Shown here in pieces: positions 15,450 to 24,812 of a stretch of DNA of 64,000 bases (position 1 is the stretch's first letter; each line of letters opens with the position of its first letter). The notes beneath the pieces were generated by a model. It searched no databases, was not told the DNA's origin, and saw only the letters and a list, made by a program, of their open reading frames with translations. Origin of the DNA: Actinomycetota bacterium (GTDB taxonomy: Bacteria > Actinomycetota > Acidimicrobiia > Acidimicrobiales > JAJPHE01); NCBI GenBank assembly GCA_027315345.1, contig DAHUYE010000085.1, forward strand, positions 62,001-126,000, given 5' to 3'. A program made the position numbers and the translations under genes.

Positions 15450-17822
15450 TCAGACGATCTGGCGGAACTGGAGATAGCGGAGCACGCCCAGGCCGGGGAG
15501 GATGGGCAGCCAGAAGGTGAGGAGGCGGAAGGTGAGCACGGCCGCCACCGCCGACTCGGGATGGACGCCGATACCGGTCAGTCCGGCCACCAGGGCGGCC
15601 TCCAGCGCCCCCAGGTTGCCCGGGGTGGGAGCTGCCGAGGCCAGGGCGGCCCCACCTACGTAGACGGCCAGGACGGACACCAACGAAAAATGGGGGTCGA
15701 AGGCGGCCAGGCTGGCCACCAGGGCCAGGCCGTTGCCCAGGGTCACGCCGGCCGATCCCCCGAACAGGGCCAGGGCCCGGAGCGGATGACCCAGGGTCGC
15801 GACCAGCTCCCGGCCCACCCGCAGGCCCGGGACCAGGACCCGGCGCCGCCCCAGGGGCGAGCCCACCAGCACCCCGGCCACGATGAGGGCGCCGGCCACC
15901 CCGGCCAGGAACGGCCAGCCCGAGGGCAGGGGGGCCTTGCCCACCAGGCCGCTGGTGCCGAGGATGGCGGCGGCCAGGAAGAACCCGGTGGCGTGGACCA
16001 CCACCCCGGCGGCCTGGTTGAGGGCGATGGACCCCACCGCTTCGGCCCGGGGGGACCCGGAGCGCTCCAGGTAGATGAGGTTGAGCCCCATGCCGCCCAG
16101 GCCGCCGGGGGTCAGGCGACTGGTGAAGGCGGAGGCGATCTGGGTCAGGGTGGTCCGGGCCAGGGACAGCCGGCGCCGGACGGCGCCCAGGTAGGAGGCG
16201 GCCGCCATGGGAAAGGTCACGGCCCCGGCTCCGAAGGCCGCTATCAGCCACCAGTAGTTGGCCTGGCGCATGGCGTCGAGAAGGCGGGGGACAGTGCCGA
16301 TCTGGGGCAGCAGCAGGTAGACGGCGCCGCCGCCCACCACCAGGGACAGCACGGTGGTGGCTCGGATGCGGGGCCGGAAGGATGGCCGGGGGGCGTCCAG
16401 GTTCTCGGCCAGCCGGGAGGAGATGTCGCCCAGAGCCAGGCGCTGGCGGGCCGTCTGGGGGGCGAGCTGGCGCCGGATATGCACCGGCAGGGCCAGGGGC
16501 TGTAGGAAGCTGAGAGCCGGGAGCAGATCCTCCCGGTCGCTGCCGCGCAGGGCCGAGCCCACCGCCCGTTCCACCCCGACCACAGAGGCCAGGGACACCA
16601 GCATCTCGGCCCGGTCCTGGGCCAGACGGCGGTCGGTGGCGCCGGCCTTGGCGAAGGTGAAGTCGAGCAGCCAGGGTGCGCCGGACGGGTCGACCAGGAC
16701 GTTGTTGGCAGTCAGCTCATGGTGGGCGATGCGGGCGGTCCCCAGGGCCCGGACCTGGCCCCAGATCTGCTCCAGCAGGCAGTCGTCCACCGCCTCGGCG
16801 CCGAGGGAGGCCAGCCGGCAGCCCTCCACCTTGCGCCGGACCAAAAGGGCCGGTCCGTGGCCCATCTCCAACCCGAAGACGACCTCGGGGGTCCTGACCC
16901 CGGCCCGCTCGGCCAGCAGGGTGACGAAGGCCTCGTGGTCCACCTCGTGGCTGGGCGAGGACAGGCCCGGCTCGTCCTCCACCTCCAGGGACGCCAGCAG
17001 GCGGCGGGCCTTGTAGGCCCAGCCGGCCCGGCGCTGGCCCCGCCGCACCACCTCGACCACGAAGCACTGGCCCTCCCCGGTACGGGCTTCGAAGTGCCGG
17101 GGCCCGAAGCCGGCCCGGCCGATGGGCTCGACCCGCATCACCTCCAGGCCGGACCGGCGCAGTACGGCCGTAACGGCGTCGGTCGAGGTGGCCCGGCCCG
17201 GCGCCCCCCAGACCAGGTGCAGCCCGCTGCCGATGGCGAAGCCGATGAAGGCCCCGGCGGCCAGTTCCAGGGCCAGATGCCCGCCGGTGAAGTCCTGGGC
17301 CGCCGCCACCAGGGCCACTCCGATGAGCGGGACCAGGCGCATGGAGCGGGGGAGATAGGGGGTGACCACGGTGGCCAGGGCGGCGGCCACGGCGGTGTGG
17401 TCGGAGGGAAAGACACTGTGGAGGACTACGGAGTGGGTGGCCCCGTTCCCGTTGGGCACCCCGTTCACCACCACCGCCCGGCGGGGGGCGAAGACGGACA
17501 GGAAGTGGCAGGCCAGCCAGCCGGCCGTGCCGGCCACGATGAGTTTGAGGGCGGCCCGGATGCGCCGGACCAGCAGGGCGATCCCGGCCGCGCCGGCTAT
17601 GCCCACCACCGAGCCGGCCAGCGAGATGGCCCGGGAGGTCTCGTCCAGCCAGGACGGCAGCAGGGCCAGATCCCGGTAGATGCCCGCCTCCAGCGGATCG
17701 ACCCGGTGCGACCGGGCGACGAAGAAGCCGGCCGTGACCAGAAGGGCGGATAGGACTATCCGGGCGACATCTCGCGGATGCCGGCCCATGGCCACTTCGG
17801 CCGGCGCCCGGGGGACAGCCAC
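15450..17822 (-). CDS. three-domain membrane protein: PAP2-like + kinase-like + YbhN/UPF0104 flippase-like
   Basis: A 790-residue fusion. Residues 20-205 are a PAP2-type membrane region with a degenerate phosphatase signature: P139-S-D-H142 for PSGH and GGH181...E for the third motif, without the usual Arg/Asp. Residues 215-470 resemble small-molecule/ABC1-type kinases: catalytic loop H367-H-E369-L...N374 with Glu replacing the usual Asp, and metal-binding D387 in LLDFTFA. Residues 490-790 match the multi-pass lysylphosphatidylglycerol-synthase membrane domain (TIGR00374/YbhN), with RLTPGGLGGMGLNLIYLERS and APTPGNLGALEAALVAGLTG. It lies 22 bases downstream of the UbiB-type kinase gene. Likely role is handling a lipid-linked phosphate compound; substrate unknown. 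Confidence 0.8.
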   Translation of the reverse strand: MAVPRAPAEVAMGRHPRDVARIVLSALLVTAGFFVARSHRVDPLEAGIYRDLALLPSWLDETSRAISLAGSVVGIAGAAGIALLVRRIRAALKLIVAGTAGWLACHFLSVFAPRRAVVVNGVPNGNGATHSVVLHSVFPSDHTAVAAALATVVTPYLPRSMRLVPLIGVALVAAAQDFTGGHLALELAAGAFIGFAIGSGLHLVWGAPGRATSTDAVTAVLRRSGLEVMRVEPIGRAGFGPRHFEARTGEGQCFVVEVVRRGQRRAGWAYKARRLLASLEVEDEPGLSSPSHEVDHEAFVTLLAERAGVRTPEVVFGLEMGHGPALLVRRKVEGCRLASLGAEAVDDCLLEQIWGQVRALGTARIAHHELTANNVLVDPSGAPWLLDFTFAKAGATDRRLAQDRAEMLVSLASVVGVERAVGSALRGSDREDLLPALSFLQPLALPVHIRRQLAPQTARQRLALGDISSRLAENLDAPRPSFRPRIRATTVLSLVVGGGAVYLLLPQIGTVPRLLDAMRQANYWWLIAAFGAGAVTFPMAAASYLGAVRRRLSLARTTLTQIASAFTSRLTPGGLGGMGLNLIYLERSGSPRAEAVGSIALNQAAGVVVHATGFFLAAAILGTSGLVGKAPLPSGWPFLAGVAGALIVAGVLVGSPLGRRRVLVPGLRVGRELVATLGHPLRALALFGGSAGVTLGNGLALVASLAAFDPHFSLVSVLAVYVGGAALASAAPTPGNLGALEAALVAGLTGIGVHPESAVAAVLTFRLLTFWLPILPGLGVLRYLQFRQIV

Positions 17823-17844
17823 CGGGCCTACCGGGAGGCGGGAC

Positions 17845-19491
17845 TCATCGGCGCCGCCGGGACGAGCGCCGCTCCTTGCGGTGGGCTTCCATGCGGCGCT
17901 CGATGATGGCCCGGCGCTCGTTCAGCTGGCGGGCGGTGACCGGGGTGGTTTCGTCGACGATCCCGAAGGACGCTCGGATGCCGGACAGGTCGATGGCCTC
18001 CACGTCGATGCTCATTCCCACGTCGGCGCTGATGCGCTCACCGTGGTGCTCGGCCATGTAGAGGGCGATGTCCCCGATGAGGGAGATGATGTCAACGTCC
18101 GGGGCCAGGGTCTGAATGGCATTGGAGCAGAACAGCATGTCCTTGACGAAGAGCATCAGTTCCTTGGGCATGCGGGCCCCATAGCCGAGTAGGGCCTTGG
18201 TCACGTTGCGAATCTCGTTGGTGATCTCCTCGGCCGTCATCTGGGTCGGATCGAGCGGCGGGGCGTCGAGGTTGAGATCCCGGATGACACCTTCGATGTC
18301 GACATCGGCGGGCAGGGCCCCGAGATCCCGTAGGGCGGCTATCTGGGCCCGGATGTCATTTCCGGTGGCGCCCATCAACAGGCGCAGGAAGGCCAGCCGG
18401 CGGGGCTCGTCCAGCCGGCCGGTGATGCCGTAGTCGAGCAGGGCGACCCGGCCGTTCTCCTGGACGAACAGGTTCCCGCCGTGGAGGTCCCCGTGGAAGA
18501 CGCCGAAGAGCATGGCCCCTTCCAGGAACGACACCAGGCTGGCCCGGACCACCTGGCTGGTGTCGATGCCGGCCGCCTTCATGCCGGCCACGTCATCGAA
18601 GCCGAATCCGCTGAGTCGCTCCATGACCAGCACCCGGCGGGTGACCAGTTGGGGGTGGGGCCGGGGCACGACCAGGGAGCGCTGGCCGGTGGCGGCCAGG
18701 ATCTGGGCCACGTCCAACATGTTCTGGGCTTCGAGGCGGAAGTCGAGTTCCTCCACGATGGTCTCGGCAAACAGATCGACCAGGGCGGGCGGGTTGGCCA
18801 GGGCCGAGATGGGGATGCGGCCGATCAGGGCCGGAGCGATCCAACTCATGGCAGCCAGGTCCCGGCGCACCATGGCGGCCACGGTGGGCCGCTGCACCTT
18901 CACCACCACGTCCCGGCCGGCCCCGATCCCGGAGCGCAGGGTGGCGGCATGGACCTGGGCGATGGAGGCCGCCGCGATGGGGGCTTGGTCGAAGGAGGAG
19001 AAGACCTCCTCCAGGGGCCGGCCCAGGTCGGACTCCACAATGCGCCTGACAGTGCTGAACGGCTCGGCCGGCACCCGGTCCCGGAGGTACTTGAACTGGC
19101 TGACCAGCTCGTCGGGGAAAATGCCCTCGCCCGAGGAGAGGATCTGGCCCAGCTTGATGTAGGTGGGCCCCAGCTTCTCGAAGGCCTTGCGCAGCCGCAG
19201 GGATACGCCGGCCCGGGACTCGGTCTGGGTCAGGCGCTTCTCCCGCAGGTACCAGTTGCCCAGAGCCCAACCAAGGCTGCCGCCGACTGTGACCACCCGG
19301 GCCCCGGGCGGTAGCCGGCGGCGGCGAACCATGCGGGGCACGTCGTGGCGGGTCCGGGACCGGAGGGCGTCGATACCCCGGCGCCAGCGCATCTCCTCCG
19401 GCACGACCAGCCAGGGTGGATCCTCGGTGAAAGCCCCCAGGCTGAGGTCGGCCGGCGCGGTCGGATCCTCCTGCGCCGCCTCCACTCCCAT
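17845..19491 (-). CDS. ABC1/UbiB (AarF) atypical kinase family protein
   Basis: The protein (548 residues) shows all family signatures: K113-L-G-Q in the N-terminal extension, the Ala-rich loop AAASIAQVH (173-181) in place of a glycine loop, K198 in VVKVQRP, the EELDF motif (247-251), catalytic loop HGDLHGGN (333-340) and D353-Y-G. UbiB proteins are ATPases linked to isoprenoid-quinone or other lipid metabolism. Unlike E. coli UbiB there is no obvious pair of strong C-terminal membrane helices; the last 20 residues are very basic (KERRSSRRRR). It leads a two-gene operon with the PAP2/kinase-like/flippase-like protein, a striking pairing of two kinase-like proteins. A TAGGTT box lies 6 bases before the ATG. 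Confidence 0.88.
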   Translation of the reverse strand: MGVEAAQEDPTAPADLSLGAFTEDPPWLVVPEEMRWRRGIDALRSRTRHDVPRMVRRRRLPPGARVVTVGGSLGWALGNWYLREKRLTQTESRAGVSLRLRKAFEKLGPTYIKLGQILSSGEGIFPDELVSQFKYLRDRVPAEPFSTVRRIVESDLGRPLEEVFSSFDQAPIAAASIAQVHAATLRSGIGAGRDVVVKVQRPTVAAMVRRDLAAMSWIAPALIGRIPISALANPPALVDLFAETIVEELDFRLEAQNMLDVAQILAATGQRSLVVPRPHPQLVTRRVLVMERLSGFGFDDVAGMKAAGIDTSQVVRASLVSFLEGAMLFGVFHGDLHGGNLFVQENGRVALLDYGITGRLDEPRRLAFLRLLMGATGNDIRAQIAALRDLGALPADVDIEGVIRDLNLDAPPLDPTQMTAEEITNEIRNVTKALLGYGARMPKELMLFVKDMLFCSNAIQTLAPDVDIISLIGDIALYMAEHHGERISADVGMSIDVEAIDLSGIRASFGIVDETTPVTARQLNERRAIIERRMEAHRKERRSSRRRR

Positions 19492-19497
19492 CGGGCG

Positions 19498-19503
19498 AAC
19501 CTA
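19498..19503 (-). promoter_or_regulatory. -10 box TAGGTT, probable leaderless promoter of the UbiB operon
   Basis: TAGGTT on the minus strand is followed by 6 bases and ATG 19491. It is back-to-back with the bcp -10 box at 19537, 33 bases away. Confidence 0.45.
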
Positions 19504-19536
19504 CCGCGCCCGGCGCGTGGCGCCCAAGCCGGTCAC

Positions 19537-19542
19537 TACCAT
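19537..19542 (+). promoter_or_regulatory. -10 box TACCAT, probable leaderless promoter of bcp-fabZ
   Basis: TACCAT is followed by 8 bases (CCGTCGCC) and ATG 19551. There is no ribosome-site-like sequence between the box and the start codon. Confidence 0.5.
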
Positions 19543-19550
19543 CCGTCGCC

Positions 19551-20015
19551 ATGACGCAACTCACGGCGGGGGACAAGGCCCCGTCCTTCACCCTGGCCGA
19601 CCAGGCCGGTGCCAAGGTCTCCCTGACCTCGTTCAAGGGCCGGCCGGTGTTGATCTACTTCTATCCCAAAGCGGATACGCCCGGCTGCACCACCCAGGCC
19701 TGCGGACTGCGGGACGTGTCCGGGGACGTCGGTGACACGGTGATCATCGGCATCAGCCCCGATGCCCCGGACAAGCAGGCCAAGTTCGACCAGAAGTACG
19801 GGCTGGGCTTCCCCCTCCTCTCCGATCCAGACCACGCCGTGGCCGACGCCTACGGCGTGTGGGGGGAACGGAGCATGTACGGACGGAAGTACATGGGCAT
19901 CGTCCGCTCGGCCTTCCTGATCGATGCCAAGGGCAAAGTGGCCGAGGCCTGGTACAAGATCTCGCCCAAGGACACCCCGGCCCGCCTGACCGAGTGGGTC
20001 AGGAAGAACGGGTGA
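19551..20015 (+). CDS. bcp: thioredoxin-dependent thiol peroxidase (Bcp/PrxQ peroxiredoxin)
   Basis: A 154-residue peroxiredoxin of the PrxQ subfamily, reducing H2O2 and organic hydroperoxides with thioredoxin. The peroxidatic C46 lies in ADTPGCTTQACGLRD and the resolving C51 five residues later, the classical atypical two-Cys PrxQ spacing. The thioredoxin-fold strand VLIYFYPK precedes it. Full length with a short C-terminus. Its stop overlaps the GTG of fabZ by 4 bases, so antioxidant defence and fatty-acid dehydration are translated from one mRNA. Confidence 0.95.
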   Translation: MTQLTAGDKAPSFTLADQAGAKVSLTSFKGRPVLIYFYPKADTPGCTTQACGLRDVSGDVGDTVIIGISPDAPDKQAKFDQKYGLGFPLLSDPDHAVADAYGVWGERSMYGRKYMGIVRSAFLIDAKGKVAEAWYKISPKDTPARLTEWVRKNG

Positions 20016-20446
20016 CCGTCGAGCTGCCCCGGCCGGCCGATGTGTTGCCGCACCGGCCGCCCTTCCTCCTGGTGGATGAGGTGACGGCGGTGGTGCCCGG
20101 GCAGTCGGCCTCGGGCCTCTGGCGCCTCACCGGGGAGGAGTGGTTTTTCCCCGGGCACTTTCCGGGCCGGCCGACCCTGCCCGGGGTGCTGATGGTGGAG
20201 GCGGTGGCCCAGCTCGGGGCCGTGGCCGTCCTGCTCGATGAGCGCTTCACGGGGAAGCTGCCGCTCTTCGGCGGAGTCGACTCCGCCCGCTTCCGCCGGC
20301 AGGTCGTCCCGGGCGACAGCCTGGACCTGGAGGTGGAGCTGGGCCGGATGTCGGCCCGGGCCGGCAAGGGCCACGGCCGCGCCTCGGTCGGCGGTCAGAC
20401 CGCCTGCGAGGTCGACCTGCTGTTTGTAATCGCCGATGGGTCCTGA
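20012..20446 (+). CDS. fabZ: 3-hydroxyacyl-ACP dehydratase, FabZ type
   Basis: Hot-dog-fold dehydratase of 144 residues that removes water from 3-hydroxyacyl-ACP to give trans-2-enoyl-ACP. The signature FPGHFPGRPTLPGVLMVEA contains catalytic H49 and E63; LPHRPPFLLVDEV is the typical N-terminal strand. GTG 20012 overlaps the bcp stop (GTGA). It converges on fabF with a 6-base gap, so it is next to the fab operon yet transcribed against it, driven from the bcp promoter. FabA-like isomerase function cannot be excluded, but FabZ fits better. Confidence 0.9.
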   Translation: MTVELPRPADVLPHRPPFLLVDEVTAVVPGQSASGLWRLTGEEWFFPGHFPGRPTLPGVLMVEAVAQLGAVAVLLDERFTGKLPLFGGVDSARFRRQVVPGDSLDLEVELGRMSARAGKGHGRASVGGQTACEVDLLFVIADGS

Positions 20447-20452
20447 CGGGGC

Positions 20453-21652
20453 TCAGTCCCGGTAGGGGAGCAGGACCAGGGTGCCGTTGTGACCGCCGAA
20501 GCCGAAGGAGTTGGAGAGAGCGGGGCCCGGCTCCCAGGCCCGGGGCCGGCCGACCACCAGGTCCAGATGGATGTCGGGATCGGGATGGTCGTGGCCGGCG
20601 GTGGGGGGGATGAGGCCCCGGTCGATGGTGAGGGCCAGGGCGACGGCCTCGATGGCGCCGGCCGCTCCGAGGGCGTGACCGGTGACTCCCTTGGTGGAGG
20701 TGACGGCCGGCCCGGGCGTGCCGAAGACCTTGTTGATGGCCTCGGCCTCGGCGGCGTCGTTGAGCGGGGTGGAGGTGCCATGGGCGTTGATGTGGCCCAC
20801 CTCGGAGGGATCGAGGCCGGCATCCTCCAGGGCCAGTTCCATGCAGGCCGCCGCCCCGGCCCCACCCGGCGAAGGCGCCGTGATGTGGTGCGCATCGGCA
20901 TTCGACGCCGCCCCGGCCACTATGGCGTAGATGTGCGCTCCCCGGGCCAGGGCCCGGTCCAGGTCCTCGAGCAGGAGCACCCCGGCCGCTTCGGCCATCA
21001 CGAAGCCGTCCCGCTCCGAGTCGAAGGGGCGGGAGATGCCCGAGCCGGACAGGGCCGTCATGTTTCCGAAGCCGGCCATGGCCACCGGGGTGGCGGCTGA
21101 CTCGGCTCCGCCGGCCAGCACCACGTCACAGCGGCCGGTGGCCACCAGCCGGGCGGCGTTGCCCACCGAGTGGGTGCCGGCCGCGCAGGCGGTGACGGTG
21201 GTCTCGCACGGGCCCCGCCAGCCGTTACGGATGCTGACGTTCCCGGCGGCGGCGTTGCCCATCATCATCGGGACCAGGAACGGGGACACCCGTCGGGGCC
21301 CCTTCTCATGGTGGATGAGGATCTGTTCCTCCAGGGTGGCCAGGCCGCCGACCCCGGTGCCGATGATCACCCCGGCCCGGTCCGGATCCACCTCGGGCCG
21401 CCCGGCGTCGTCCAGAGCCATCTCGGCCGCGGCCACGCCCATCTGGGCGAAGCGGTCGACCCGCCGGACGTCCTTCGGGCCGAACCAGGGGGTGGGGTCG
21501 AAGTCGGTGACGATGCGGGTCCCCTCCGGCGCCGGCCGGCACAGGCCGTCGAAGAAGGCGTCCTTACCGATGCCGGCGGTGGTAACGACCCCCAGGCCGG
21601 TGATGGCCACCGCCCGACCCTGGGTGCCTCCGGGCAGGAACGAGGTCTTCAC
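20453..21652 (-). CDS. fabF: 3-oxoacyl-ACP synthase II (FabF)
   Basis: Condensing enzyme of 399 residues with thiolase fold, elongating acyl-ACP with malonyl-ACP. The triad is intact: C156 in TVTACAAGTHS, H291 in NAHGTSTPLND and H326 in KGVTGHALGAAG. Length is normal (about 410). It is the last gene of fabD-fabH-fabG-acpP-fabF, 9 bases after the ACP gene. Catalyses the later elongation steps after FabH priming. Confidence 0.95.
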   Translation of the reverse strand: MKTSFLPGGTQGRAVAITGLGVVTTAGIGKDAFFDGLCRPAPEGTRIVTDFDPTPWFGPKDVRRVDRFAQMGVAAAEMALDDAGRPEVDPDRAGVIIGTGVGGLATLEEQILIHHEKGPRRVSPFLVPMMMGNAAAGNVSIRNGWRGPCETTVTACAAGTHSVGNAARLVATGRCDVVLAGGAESAATPVAMAGFGNMTALSGSGISRPFDSERDGFVMAEAAGVLLLEDLDRALARGAHIYAIVAGAASNADAHHITAPSPGGAGAAACMELALEDAGLDPSEVGHINAHGTSTPLNDAAEAEAINKVFGTPGPAVTSTKGVTGHALGAAGAIEAVALALTIDRGLIPPTAGHDHPDPDIHLDLVVGRPRAWEPGPALSNSFGFGGHNGTLVLLPYRD

Positions 21653-21661
21653 CTCGGGCCC

Positions 21662-21904
21662 TCAGGAAACCTTGGACAGGACCAGGTCGAAGGCCTGCCC
21701 GACCGTCTGGACCCCTTCCAGCTCGGACTCGTCCACGGTGATGTCGAAGCTCTCTTCCAGAGCCATCACCAGTTCAACCAGGTCCAAGCTGTCGGCATCG
21801 AGGTCGTCCCCGAACTTGGCCTCGATGGTGACCTGATCGGGTTGGACCTGGAGCACCTCGACGGCGCAGGTCTTGAACTTCTCGAAGGCAGTGTCTCGAT
21901 CCAC
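21662..21904 (-). CDS. acpP: acyl carrier protein
   Basis: Eighty residues, strongly acidic, with the 4'-phosphopantetheine attachment serine S39 in DLDADSLDLVELVMALEE. It carries the growing acyl chain between the enzymes encoded on both sides. The position between fabG and fabF is the common one. Start ATG 21904. Confidence 0.96.
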   Translation of the reverse strand: MDRDTAFEKFKTCAVEVLQVQPDQVTIEAKFGDDLDADSLDLVELVMALEESFDITVDESELEGVQTVGQAFDLVLSKVS

Positions 21905-21937
21905 GGTTCCCTTTCTAGTTCGTCCGGTGACGATGCA

Positions 21938-22684
21938 TCAGTGGCCCATGGCCAGGCCGCCGTCGACGGGCAGGACGGCGCCGGTGATGTAGGAGGCGTC
22001 GTCCGAGGCCAGGAAGGCCACCACCCCGGCTATCTCCTCGGGCCGGGCCACCCGGCCCAGGGGCACCCGGTCCACCAGTTCGGCCATCTGGGCCTCGTTG
22101 AGGGCGCCCAGCATGTCGGTGTCCACCGTGCCGGGGGCGACCACGTTGACCAGGATCGAGCGGGAGGACAGCTCCCGGGCCATGGAACGGGCGAAGCCGA
22201 CCAGCCCGGCCTTGGCGGCGGCGTAGTTGGCCTGCCCGGCCTGGCCGGCCAGACCGGAAACGGAGGAGACCAGGATGACCCGGCCCTTCCGGGCCCGCAT
22301 CATCGGCCCCACCACCCGCTTGACCAGCCGGTAGACGCCGGTGAGGTTGGTCTCGATCACGTCGGACCAGGCTTCCTCGCTCATGCGCATGAGCAGGCCG
22401 TCCCGGGTCAGGCCGGCGTTGGCCACCAGCACCTCGACCGGCCCCCATTCTTTCTCGATCAGATCGAGGGCGGCCGTGACCGCCTCGGGTCGGCTCTGGT
22501 CGCAGGCGAGGTGCCAGGGCCCCTCGGCCGGGGGGCCGGAGCCGCCGGCCGGGCCGGAGCGCGACGTGTAGGCGACCCGGTCGCCTCGGGCCGCGAAGCG
22601 CTCGACGCAGGCGGCGCCTATACCCCGGGATCCGCCCGTCACCAGGACGACGCGGCCGGGACCTTCCGGGACTTCAGGGCTCAA
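21938..22684 (-). CDS. fabG: 3-oxoacyl-ACP reductase (FabG)
   Basis: Short-chain dehydrogenase reducing 3-oxoacyl-ACP with NADPH. The nucleotide-binding TGGSRGIG, the NAG motif VANAGLTRDGLLMRM, the catalytic Ser (VSSVSGLAGQAGQ) and YAAAK are all present. The start is uncertain: no ATG or GTG fits ahead of the first beta strand without entering fabH. TTG 22684 overlaps the fabH stop in a TTGA arrangement and yields 248 residues, the usual FabG size, so it is my choice. A longer frame reads into fabH and is unlikely. Confidence 0.92.
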   Translation of the reverse strand: MSPEVPEGPGRVVLVTGGSRGIGAACVERFAARGDRVAYTSRSGPAGGSGPPAEGPWHLACDQSRPEAVTAALDLIEKEWGPVEVLVANAGLTRDGLLMRMSEEAWSDVIETNLTGVYRLVKRVVGPMMRARKGRVILVSSVSGLAGQAGQANYAAAKAGLVGFARSMARELSSRSILVNVVAPGTVDTDMLGALNEAQMAELVDRVPLGRVARPEEIAGVVAFLASDDASYITGAVLPVDGGLAMGH

Positions 22685-23610
22685 GCCGCCGCGCTCCAGC
22701 GCACCAAGGCGCTGGCCCAGGTCATCCCGGCCCCGAAGCCGCACAGCAGCACCAGGTCACCGGGGGAGAGCCGGCCGGACTCGGCGGCGTCGGCCAGGGC
22801 CAGGGGGATGGATGCGGAAGAGGTGTTGCCCGTCCGGTGCAGCACCACGGCGGTGCGCTCCATGGGGATGCCGAGGCGCTGGGTGGCCGCCTCGATGATG
22901 CGGATGTTGGCCTGGTGGGGCACCAGCAGGGTCACCTCGGCGGCGGACACCCCGGCCCGCTCCAGGGTGGCCTGGGCCGAATCGACCATCGCCCGGACCG
23001 CCCGGCGGAACACCTCCCTACCGTTCATGGTGATGTACCCGTGCAGGTCGGCGTAGAGGATGGGCCGTAGGGAACCGTCGGCGCCGAGATCCCAGGCCAG
23101 CAGATCCCCCGGGCCGTCCACCGCCTCGAGCACCACCGCTCCGGCGCCGTCCCCGAACAGCACGGCCGTGCTGCGGTCCTCCCAGTCGGTGATGCGGCTG
23201 AGCCGCTCGGCTCCGATGAGCAGGACCCGGCCCACGTGGCCCCCGACCATGCCCGACGCCGCCACCAGGGAGTAGACGAAGCCCGAGCAGGCGGCGTTGA
23301 GGTCGAAGGCGCCGCAGGTGAGGCCGAGTTCGAAGGCGACGTGGGCCGAAGTGGCCGGCACCGACTGGTCGGGAGTGGTGGTGGCCAGGGCCAGTAGGTC
23401 GATGTCGGCCGGGGCCACGCCGGCCCGGGCCAGGGCCGCCCGTCCCGCCCCGATGGCCAGCTCGGCGCAGCTGTCCCCGATCCGGCGCTCCCGGATCCCT
23501 GAACGCTCGGTGATCCACTCATCGCTGGTGTCGAGGCGGGCCTCGAGATCGGCGTTGGTGATCACCTTGTCCGGCAGGGCCGTGCCCCACCCGGTGATGG
23601 TGACACCCAT
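22681..23610 (-). CDS. fabH: 3-oxoacyl-ACP synthase III (FabH)
   Basis: Primes fatty-acid synthesis by condensing an acyl-CoA with malonyl-ACP. The Cys-His-Asn triad is C108 (LNAACSGF), H232 (PHQANIRI) and N262 (RTGNTSSASIPLA). The length of 309 residues is slightly short but complete, with the N-terminal DEWITERSGIRERR signature. ATG 23610 shares one base with the fabD stop (TGATG) and the fabG start overlaps its stop, so the three are tightly coupled. Primer preference (acetyl versus branched) cannot be told from sequence. Confidence 0.95.
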   Translation of the reverse strand: MGVTITGWGTALPDKVITNADLEARLDTSDEWITERSGIRERRIGDSCAELAIGAGRAALARAGVAPADIDLLALATTTPDQSVPATSAHVAFELGLTCGAFDLNAACSGFVYSLVAASGMVGGHVGRVLLIGAERLSRITDWEDRSTAVLFGDGAGAVVLEAVDGPGDLLAWDLGADGSLRPILYADLHGYITMNGREVFRRAVRAMVDSAQATLERAGVSAAEVTLLVPHQANIRIIEAATQRLGIPMERTAVVLHRTGNTSSASIPLALADAAESGRLSPGDLVLLCGFGAGMTWASALVRWSAAA

Positions 23611-24812
23611 CAGCGGTCGGTCCCGCAGCGCAGCCAGGCCACCGGCTGGCCGTCGGTGACCCGCTCCCCGTCCACGGCCAGCAGCCCCTGCAACGTCCCG
23701 GCGAAGGGACTCCGCACTTCGCTACTCCCCACCGTCCCCAGGAGCTGGCCGACCTCGATCTCCTGGCCTGTCCGCAGAGGACCGTCAACGGGCTTGGCGT
23801 AGACGCCGGTCATGGGGCTGACCACCACCCGTTCGGACACGTACAGGTGCTCGCCCTGGTGCTGGGCCACATAGGCCTGCAGCGGGCTGGCTCCGGCCAG
23901 GCTCTCCACCAGGGTGTCGAGATCGTCCGGGCCCGACACGCTGACGGCCCGCACTTCCGGGGCGATGCGGCGCACCAGCCCGGTCAGCACCGCCCCCGGG
24001 CCGACCTCGACGAAGGCGGGGGAGTCGGGGTCGGACGCCACCAGGGCGTCGATGGTCTGGCGCCAGCGGACCGGGGAGCAGAGCTGGGCGGAGAGAAGCG
24101 AGGACCACTCATCGGCGGAGGAATGGACCCGGGCGTCGACATTGGCGGTGACCGGCACTTCCAGGGAGTGGAAGCTCACCTCGGCCAGGGCTTTGCGCAG
24201 CCGGCTGCGGGCCGGCTCCATGAGCGGGGTGTGGAAGGCCCCGCCGACGGGCAGGCCCATGACCCGCTTGGCTCCCATCTGCTTGGCGACCTCACCGGCG
24301 GCGGCCACGCCGTCAGCGGAGCCGGCTATGACCACCTGGCCCGGGGCGTTGTAGTTGGCCACCCAGGCCTCGGCCTCGGCCCGCACGCAGGCGGCCTCGA
24401 CGTCATCGTCCTCCAACCCCAGCACGGCCGCCATGGTCCCGGGGTGGTCCTCGGCGGCAGCCTGCATCGCCTCGCCCCGTTCGGTGACCAGCCGGACCCC
24501 GTCCTCGAAGGAGATGGCTCCGCTGGCCACCAGGGCCGAGTACTCACCGAGGGAATGCCCGGCGCAGGCCGAGGGGGACAGCCCCAGCCGCTCGATGGCA
24601 TCGAGCACCACCAGGCTGAGGGTGAAGGTGGCCAGCTGGGCGTTGCGGGTCTGGGTCAGCTCGTCCTTGTCGGCGTGGAGTAGGAGACGGGTCACGTCGC
24701 GCTCGGCTGCCTCCGAGGCATCGCCTACCAGCTCCCAGGAGGGGTGGTCCGCCCAGGCCTCGCCCATGCCGGGCTTCTGGGATCCCTGACCGGGGAAGGT
24801 GAAGGTCAGCAC
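23610..24812 (-). CDS. fabD: malonyl-CoA:ACP transacylase (FabD) with C-terminal biotinyl/lipoyl-like domain
   Basis: Residues 1-305 are a complete FabD that loads malonyl groups on ACP: FPGQGSQKPGMG, nucleophile S87 in GHSLGEYSAL, H194 in GAFHTPLM and the C-terminal VEVGPGAVLTGLV. Residues 325-397 are extra: two half-repeats, VVVSPMTGVYAKPV and EVRSPFAGTLQGLLAVDGER, ending GQPVAWLR, as in biotinyl/lipoyl barrels. At the hairpin where such domains carry the modified Lys (EAMKM or equivalents) the sequence reads VGSSEV, so it should not be biotinylated or lipoylated. Start GTG 24812 has GGAGG 7-8 bases upstream. Normal FabD is about 310 residues; the extension is in frame with no stop. Confidence 0.9.
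   Translation of the reverse strand: MLTFTFPGQGSQKPGMGEAWADHPSWELVGDASEAAERDVTRLLLHADKDELTQTRNAQLATFTLSLVVLDAIERLGLSPSACAGHSLGEYSALVASGAISFEDGVRLVTERGEAMQAAAEDHPGTMAAVLGLEDDDVEAACVRAEAEAWVANYNAPGQVVIAGSADGVAAAGEVAKQMGAKRVMGLPVGGAFHTPLMEPARSRLRKALAEVSFHSLEVPVTANVDARVHSSADEWSSLLSAQLCSPVRWRQTIDALVASDPDSPAFVEVGPGAVLTGLVRRIAPEVRAVSVSGPDDLDTLVESLAGASPLQAYVAQHQGEHLYVSERVVVSPMTGVYAKPVDGPLRTGQEIEVGQLLGTVGSSEVRSPFAGTLQGLLAVDGERVTDGQPVAWLRCGTDR

Follow-up and report, generated by a model that had tools for sequence, protein, structure and literature searches.

The 64,000-nucleotide stretch of an Actinomycetota genome analysed here (contig DAHUYE010000085.1, positions 62,001 to 126,000; hereafter, the window) encodes a three-domain membrane protein of 790 residues (P0001) on its minus strand, at positions 15450 to 17822, with a GTG start and an alternative ATG at residue 12. 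The protein is probably a lipid translocase of the YbhN/MprF type, flippase or scramblase, fused to a pseudo-PAP2 domain and a Bud32/APH-like pseudokinase; transport activity is what we infer from its sequence. Catalytic residues have been lost from both enzyme-like domains, the gate residues of the translocase are conserved, and constraint has shifted towards the translocase. Under this reading, the C-terminal YbhN domain would carry a membrane lipid, bulk or modified, from one leaflet to the other. The two dead-enzyme domains would serve to bind a ligand or a partner and to control gating or location, the pseudokinase presumably as a regulator. In terms of ancestry, the window's clade would have lost phosphatase and kinase residues while the translocase gate residues stayed fixed.

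A sequence-only reading of this DNA had proposed the same three-part anatomy, which open reading frame (ORF) calls, Pfam, NCBIfam and a predicted kinase structure bear out; the motifs FPSDH (138-142), GGHLALE (180-186) and HHELTANN (367-374), as well as E369, N374 and D387, lie exactly where it had placed them. Profile searches gave matches of unequal strength over the protein's three parts. The C-terminal third (residues 485-790; 15453 to 16370) matched PF03706, the family of YbhN and MprF-type translocases, over residues 491-777 (E = 3.3e-26; 92.9 bits against a cut-off of 33.4) and profile positions 2-302 of 302, which makes it a full-domain member. The N-terminal PAP2-like membrane domain (residues 14-205; 17208 to 17783) is degenerate and matched PF01569 over residues 135-204 slightly below the curated cut-off (E = 1.2e-5); together with the match of a relative, L070, at 7.2e-20, this establishes homology to PAP2 phosphatases. 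The kinase-like domain between them (residues 210-480; 16383 to 17195), predicted to be a pseudokinase of Bud32/PRPK/WaaP/APH fold, gave weak matches to APH (0.008) and Kdo (0.07) at about residues 305-395 and a Bud32 profile match of 7e-7. An AlphaFold2 model was built from seven sequences; its predicted template-modelling score was 0.41 for the whole protein, and we therefore used the kinase part alone. There, predicted local distance difference test scores of about 75-91 over most of the domain describe a bilobal kinase fold, of which residues 201-444 best match PRPK/Bud32 (Z 16.5 over 204 residues), followed by WaaP (14.9) and APH(3')-IIa (14.6). Unlike these kinases, the window protein has Glu in place of both the beta3 Lys and the catalytic Asp. 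Hydropathy and the positive-inside rule place the N-terminus inside and predict six PAP2 helices; this would put the kinase on the cytosolic side of the membrane and turn the active-site face of PAP2 outwards.

Full-length homologues are 65-66% identical in two other genera of the window's family (f1) and 55% identical in one genome outside it (L068), and the protein is thus not a chance ORF. Further homologues, 43-46% identical in Pseudonocardia and about 23-42% identical in many other Actinomycetota, including families f85 and f80, indicate that the architecture defines a family and is not a one-off. A single-protein query of genome contigs, which reaches close relatives only, returned seven loci. 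Motif states were scored in 60 aligned three-domain homologues across Actinomycetota (L207 and L212 were not classified), and the counts given below refer to these. The window's clade comprises eight members (Shimodaira-Hasegawa approximate likelihood-ratio support, 99) and is nested in a 13-row set (99) that also contains an intact group. A copy on the Mycolicibacterium gilvum plasmid pMSPYR101 (WP_013470206.1), 37% identical, is annotated as a "lysylphosphatidylglycerol synthase domain-containing protein". We found no description of this fusion in the literature, and the Hauser 2022 survey of PplT fusions, as cited in PMC11980842, may list it. The family is known in databases, no paper on it was found, and the window protein is a degenerate member, a variant of the MprF/YbhN kind.

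Catalytic integrity was assessed through two residue sets. The PAP2 set consists of six residues over motifs C1, C2 and C3 (consensus K-x6-RP, PSGH and SR-x5-H-x3-D), the kinase set of the beta3 Lys, alphaC Glu, catalytic Asp, Asn and DFG Asp. The former is complete in 5 and the latter in 11 of the 60 homologues, none of them in the window's clade; members with complete sets include a sister group and the Mycolicibacterium plasmid copy. Measured against the PAP2 consensus, the window protein has lost the C1 Lys and C3 Arg, reads PSDH at C2 (residues 139-142; 17397 to 17408; PADH, PSVR or AATH in relatives) and has Glu for Asp in C3 (Q176...H182...E186; 17265 to 17297), which leaves its catalytic motifs incomplete. 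The C1 Lys and the canonical C3 Arg are absent from all eight clade members, and the C2 His has been replaced in two, by Arg in L109 (65% identical) and by Gln in L063. The alignment of the C1 Arg and Pro in this clade is uncertain by a few columns, and the clade-invariant R115 may be the C1 Arg; the losses of the C1 Lys and C3 Arg hold regardless.

The kinase-like domain retains one of three key residues, the beta3 Lys, catalytic Asp and metal-binding Asp being represented by E257, E369 and D387. The first of these losses, aligned at Glu257 (17052 to 17054), is additional to those recognised by the sequence-only reading: f1 and L068 have Glu at this position, Pseudonocardia has Arg and intact relatives have Lys. 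HHELTANN (residues 367-374; 16701 to 16724) aligns at the position of the catalytic loop. Conservation of E369, N374 and D387, to which that reading had looked for support, is found in the clade at N374 (8/8) but not at E369, and D387 becomes Asn in three Pseudonocardia genomes. Since Glu369 is confined to the window and L108, with Asp in the six other clade members, it appears to be a recent change from Asp in an already impaired kinase. Asp403 (16614 to 16616), probably the structural Asp of helix alphaF, is invariant in all 60 homologues and H367 occurs in 58, as would be expected if the fold of the kinase were kept but its chemistry were not.

In the translocase domain, P734, E741 and R766 are invariant across the 60 homologues, and G735 is found in 59. 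A profile built from 26 YbhN domains aligns the PGG..G..E motif and the Arg with the same residues in Pseudomonas MprF (E 1.3e-5). Glu741 (15600 to 15602) thereby falls on the MprF gate glutamate (RtMprF E280, PaMprF E295; PMC8131360, PMC11980842) and Arg766 (15525 to 15527) on the gate arginine (RtMprF R304, PaMprF R319), so that the gate Pro, Glu and Arg are all represented, the latter two as placed by profile alignment. The family profile was needed to reach MprF, as phmmer searches of PDB sequences with the whole protein or the YbhN part alone gave no useful match. In Rhizobium MprF, the Glu280-Arg304 pair forms a gate between two lipid cavities, and P273 precedes the gate Glu by seven residues (PMC8131360), the spacing also seen for P734. 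Pseudomonas MprF behaves as a promiscuous scramblase in vitro, and fusion of such translocase domains to enzymes that modify lipids is common (PMC11980842). MprF, a synthase and translocase of lysyl- and alanyl-phosphatidylglycerol (RtMprF, PDB 9goe), shares with the window protein a PF03706-type translocase, the gate motif (P, PGG..G..E, R) and fused domains, but the window protein lacks an aminoacyl-transferase domain and bears PAP2-like and kinase-like domains on its N-terminal side. YbhN, UPF0104 or "PplT" proteins correspond to its C-terminal third, likewise PF03706, but YbhN stands alone, whereas the fusion in the window is larger.

Constraint is unevenly spread over the three domains, with 14 near-invariant positions in YbhN, 4 in the kinase and 2 in PAP2. 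Mean pairwise identities of PAP2, kinase and YbhN were 0.53, 0.46 and 0.41 among four of the members in which both sets are intact, 0.30, 0.50 and 0.45 among the six in which the kinase set alone is intact, and 0.46, 0.58 and 0.70 among f1 and L068. For the difference YbhN minus PAP2, bootstrap intervals ran from -0.19 to -0.06 in the both-intact members and from 0.17 to 0.30 in f1 and L068; the interval was also positive in the kinase-only-intact set. Constraint, on these figures, seems to track catalysis, decreasing from PAP2 through kinase to YbhN where both sets are intact and from YbhN through kinase to PAP2 in the window's clade. With this shift to YbhN, the window protein resembles a translocase whose enzyme domains have been retained as scaffolds. 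Ratios of nonsynonymous to synonymous differences per site (pN/pS), for pairs among three members of the window's family, were lowest in YbhN (0.33-0.48), at 0.53-0.71 in the other two domains.

Several aspects of the data weigh against a translocase with inactive enzyme domains. Firstly, E297, N374 and D387 are still present in the kinase-like domain, as are the C2 and C3 histidines (H142 and H182) in PAP2, and certain pseudokinases are active through altered chemistry. Secondly, the pattern of constraint does not hold everywhere: families f85 and f80 have likewise lost both sets, but PAP2 and YbhN are conserved to about the same degree there. The synonymous component (pS) lies near 0.4-0.6 and is partly saturated, so that pN/pS serves only as a rough guide, and, as the tree has no established root, which way change ran over the family as a whole has to be read from motif logic. 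Lastly, we found no experiment on any family member in the literature, and the gate salt bridge of PaMprF is dispensable for transport in vitro (PMC11980842).

A more specific form of the translocase reading, to which we give somewhat less than an even chance, is regulation resembling that of Mycobacterium tuberculosis MviN (Rv3910), in which a partner protein or Ser/Thr kinase would act on the pseudokinase and thereby gate lipid movement. MviN combines a MurJ-type membrane domain with a PknB-like pseudokinase. Its kinase lineage thus differs from the Bud32/APH-like one seen here, and its membrane domain, which is not accompanied by PAP2, differs from PF03706, so the window protein is not of the MviN type. 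Neither is any neighbouring partner gene conserved across the family; we found no neighbour shared across families outside the f80 group and Pseudonocardia. On the other hand, the retention of the kinase fold despite catalytic losses, as marked by D403 and H367, is what such regulation would call for, and MviN is likewise a lipid-flippase-type membrane protein with a pseudokinase domain, one which recruits an inhibitory partner (PMC12599244).

The three-domain gene lies 22 bases behind a gene for a UbiB/ABC1 atypical kinase of 548 residues (P0002; 17845 to 19491), also on the minus strand. The sequence-only reading had called this neighbour canonical, and the gap and ORF are as it described; the description fits the kinase core only. 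PF03109 is matched at 1.9e-61, and the KxGQ motif, Ala-rich loop and kinase motifs of the ABC1 family are present (KLGQ, AAASIAQ, VKVQRP, HGDLHGGN, DYG), but the score against TIGR01982 is 300 bits, below the cut-off of 488, and hydropathy detects no C-terminal transmembrane pair. On sequence, we would file the protein under ABC1 and not as a UbiB equivalog. An orthologue (E<1e-130) is near-universal in the order, occurring in 45 of 58 relatives. The three-domain gene adjoins it, co-directionally, in all three genomes of the family examined; the gap is about 20 bases in two, and in the third the genes are separated by a divergent ORF that by eye looks MarR-like. None of 20 UbiB loci in other families of the order has a three-domain gene nearby, nor is the pairing found in Pseudonocardia. 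At nine of these 20, fabF lies within about 4 kb, usually with fabG, fabH or fabD, and a BCP peroxiredoxin gene is near six; the window has these fab genes and BCP too, on the side of UbiB that faces away from the three-domain gene. UbiB is a core gene of the order in its own right, often found next to fabF; in one family the three-domain gene came to lie behind it, and that the two adjoin is for the most part an accident of local gene order. This order-wide neighbourhood (17845 to 24812 in the window, with fabD, fabH, fabG, fabF and the BCP peroxiredoxin) ties an ABC1 kinase to type II fatty acid synthesis. Its FabD ORF (23610 to 24812; 400 residues) carries a C-terminal biotinyl- or lipoyl-like stretch with, by eye, no obvious attachment Lys, and has a full-length match at L182 (66% over 405 residues).

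Given this distribution, a functional partnership in which UbiB acts on the same lipid as the three-domain protein seems unlikely to us. The co-directional pairing in three genomes of one family favours such a partnership, as do ABC1 genes of other subfamilies near distant three-domain members in genome G211 (L076, with fragments at L074) and genus g115 (L082 and L085), set against our own estimate that 730 kb, at about three such genes per genome, should contain roughly 0.6; these cases hint weakly that more than chance may underlie the link. Furthermore, the UbiB orthologue occurs in 14 of 14 genomes of the order with a full or near-full three-domain copy, compared with 31 of 44 without (Fisher p 0.016, ignoring relatedness and genome size). 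However, UbiB is near-universal in the order without this partner, its other loci more often feature fabF, and the 55%-identical orthologue of the three-domain gene has other neighbours.

More doubtful still is that the window copy, together with UbiB, phosphorylates, flips and dephosphorylates a lipid as an active lipid-phosphate module: although H142, H182, E297, N374 and D387 are present, intact relatives exist and UbiB is adjacent throughout the family genomes examined, the clade as a whole has lost its C1 Lys, C3 Arg and beta3 Lys, L109 lacks the C2 His, PAP2 is the fastest-changing part, and adjacency to UbiB is absent outside the family. Of the lipid- or isoprenoid-phosphate module put forward by the sequence-only reading, the lipid-translocase domain, the most constrained part, and the inherited three-fold architecture stand, and active phosphatase or kinase chemistry in the window copy does not. 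The two developments which that reading had itself named as fatal, unconserved kinase-like residues and a pairing with UbiB lost in relatives, were each observed in part.

Both sets are complete in the M. gilvum pMSPYR101 copy, which differs from the window protein in having all scored catalytic residues and an adjoining, intact, stand-alone PAP2 gene in addition to its fused PAP2, and in L069-L072. It is conceivable, albeit unlikely in our estimation, that such members are one-chain lipid pumps, in which a cytosolic kinase would phosphorylate a lipid, the MprF-type domain would move it and PAP2 would dephosphorylate it outside, and that the window's lineage kept the translocase while its enzymes became regulators. 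Phosphorylation inside coupled to dephosphorylation outside would make a passive scramblase directional at the cost of ATP. Among the six members with an intact kinase and a dead PAP2, an intact stand-alone PAP2 gene adjoins the three-domain gene in two, and broken pieces of PAP2 lie there in a third; by our own tally, which ignores relatedness and includes some contigs that end close by, no such gene accompanies any of the 49 members in which both sets are incomplete.

Three further loci may be recorded here. The pMSPYR101 copy and its stand-alone PAP2 gene (L197:7224-10355) share their surroundings with genes for a metal P-type ATPase and a phosphoketolase. At L113:4833-5830, two tandem PAP2-like ORFs beside the three-domain gene look truncated or frameshifted, and may be true pseudogenes or assembly errors. 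In the f80 genomes (L092-L099), the family member has conserved neighbours, including an oppositely transcribed ORF of about 1200 residues that is UvrD-like by eye.

An MprF-type domain acts as a passive scramblase in vitro, which raises the question of how such domains gain direction or come under control in the cell. Members of the present family range naturally from fully catalytic to entirely dead, and comparing lipid movement by intact and degenerate members would offer a direct test.

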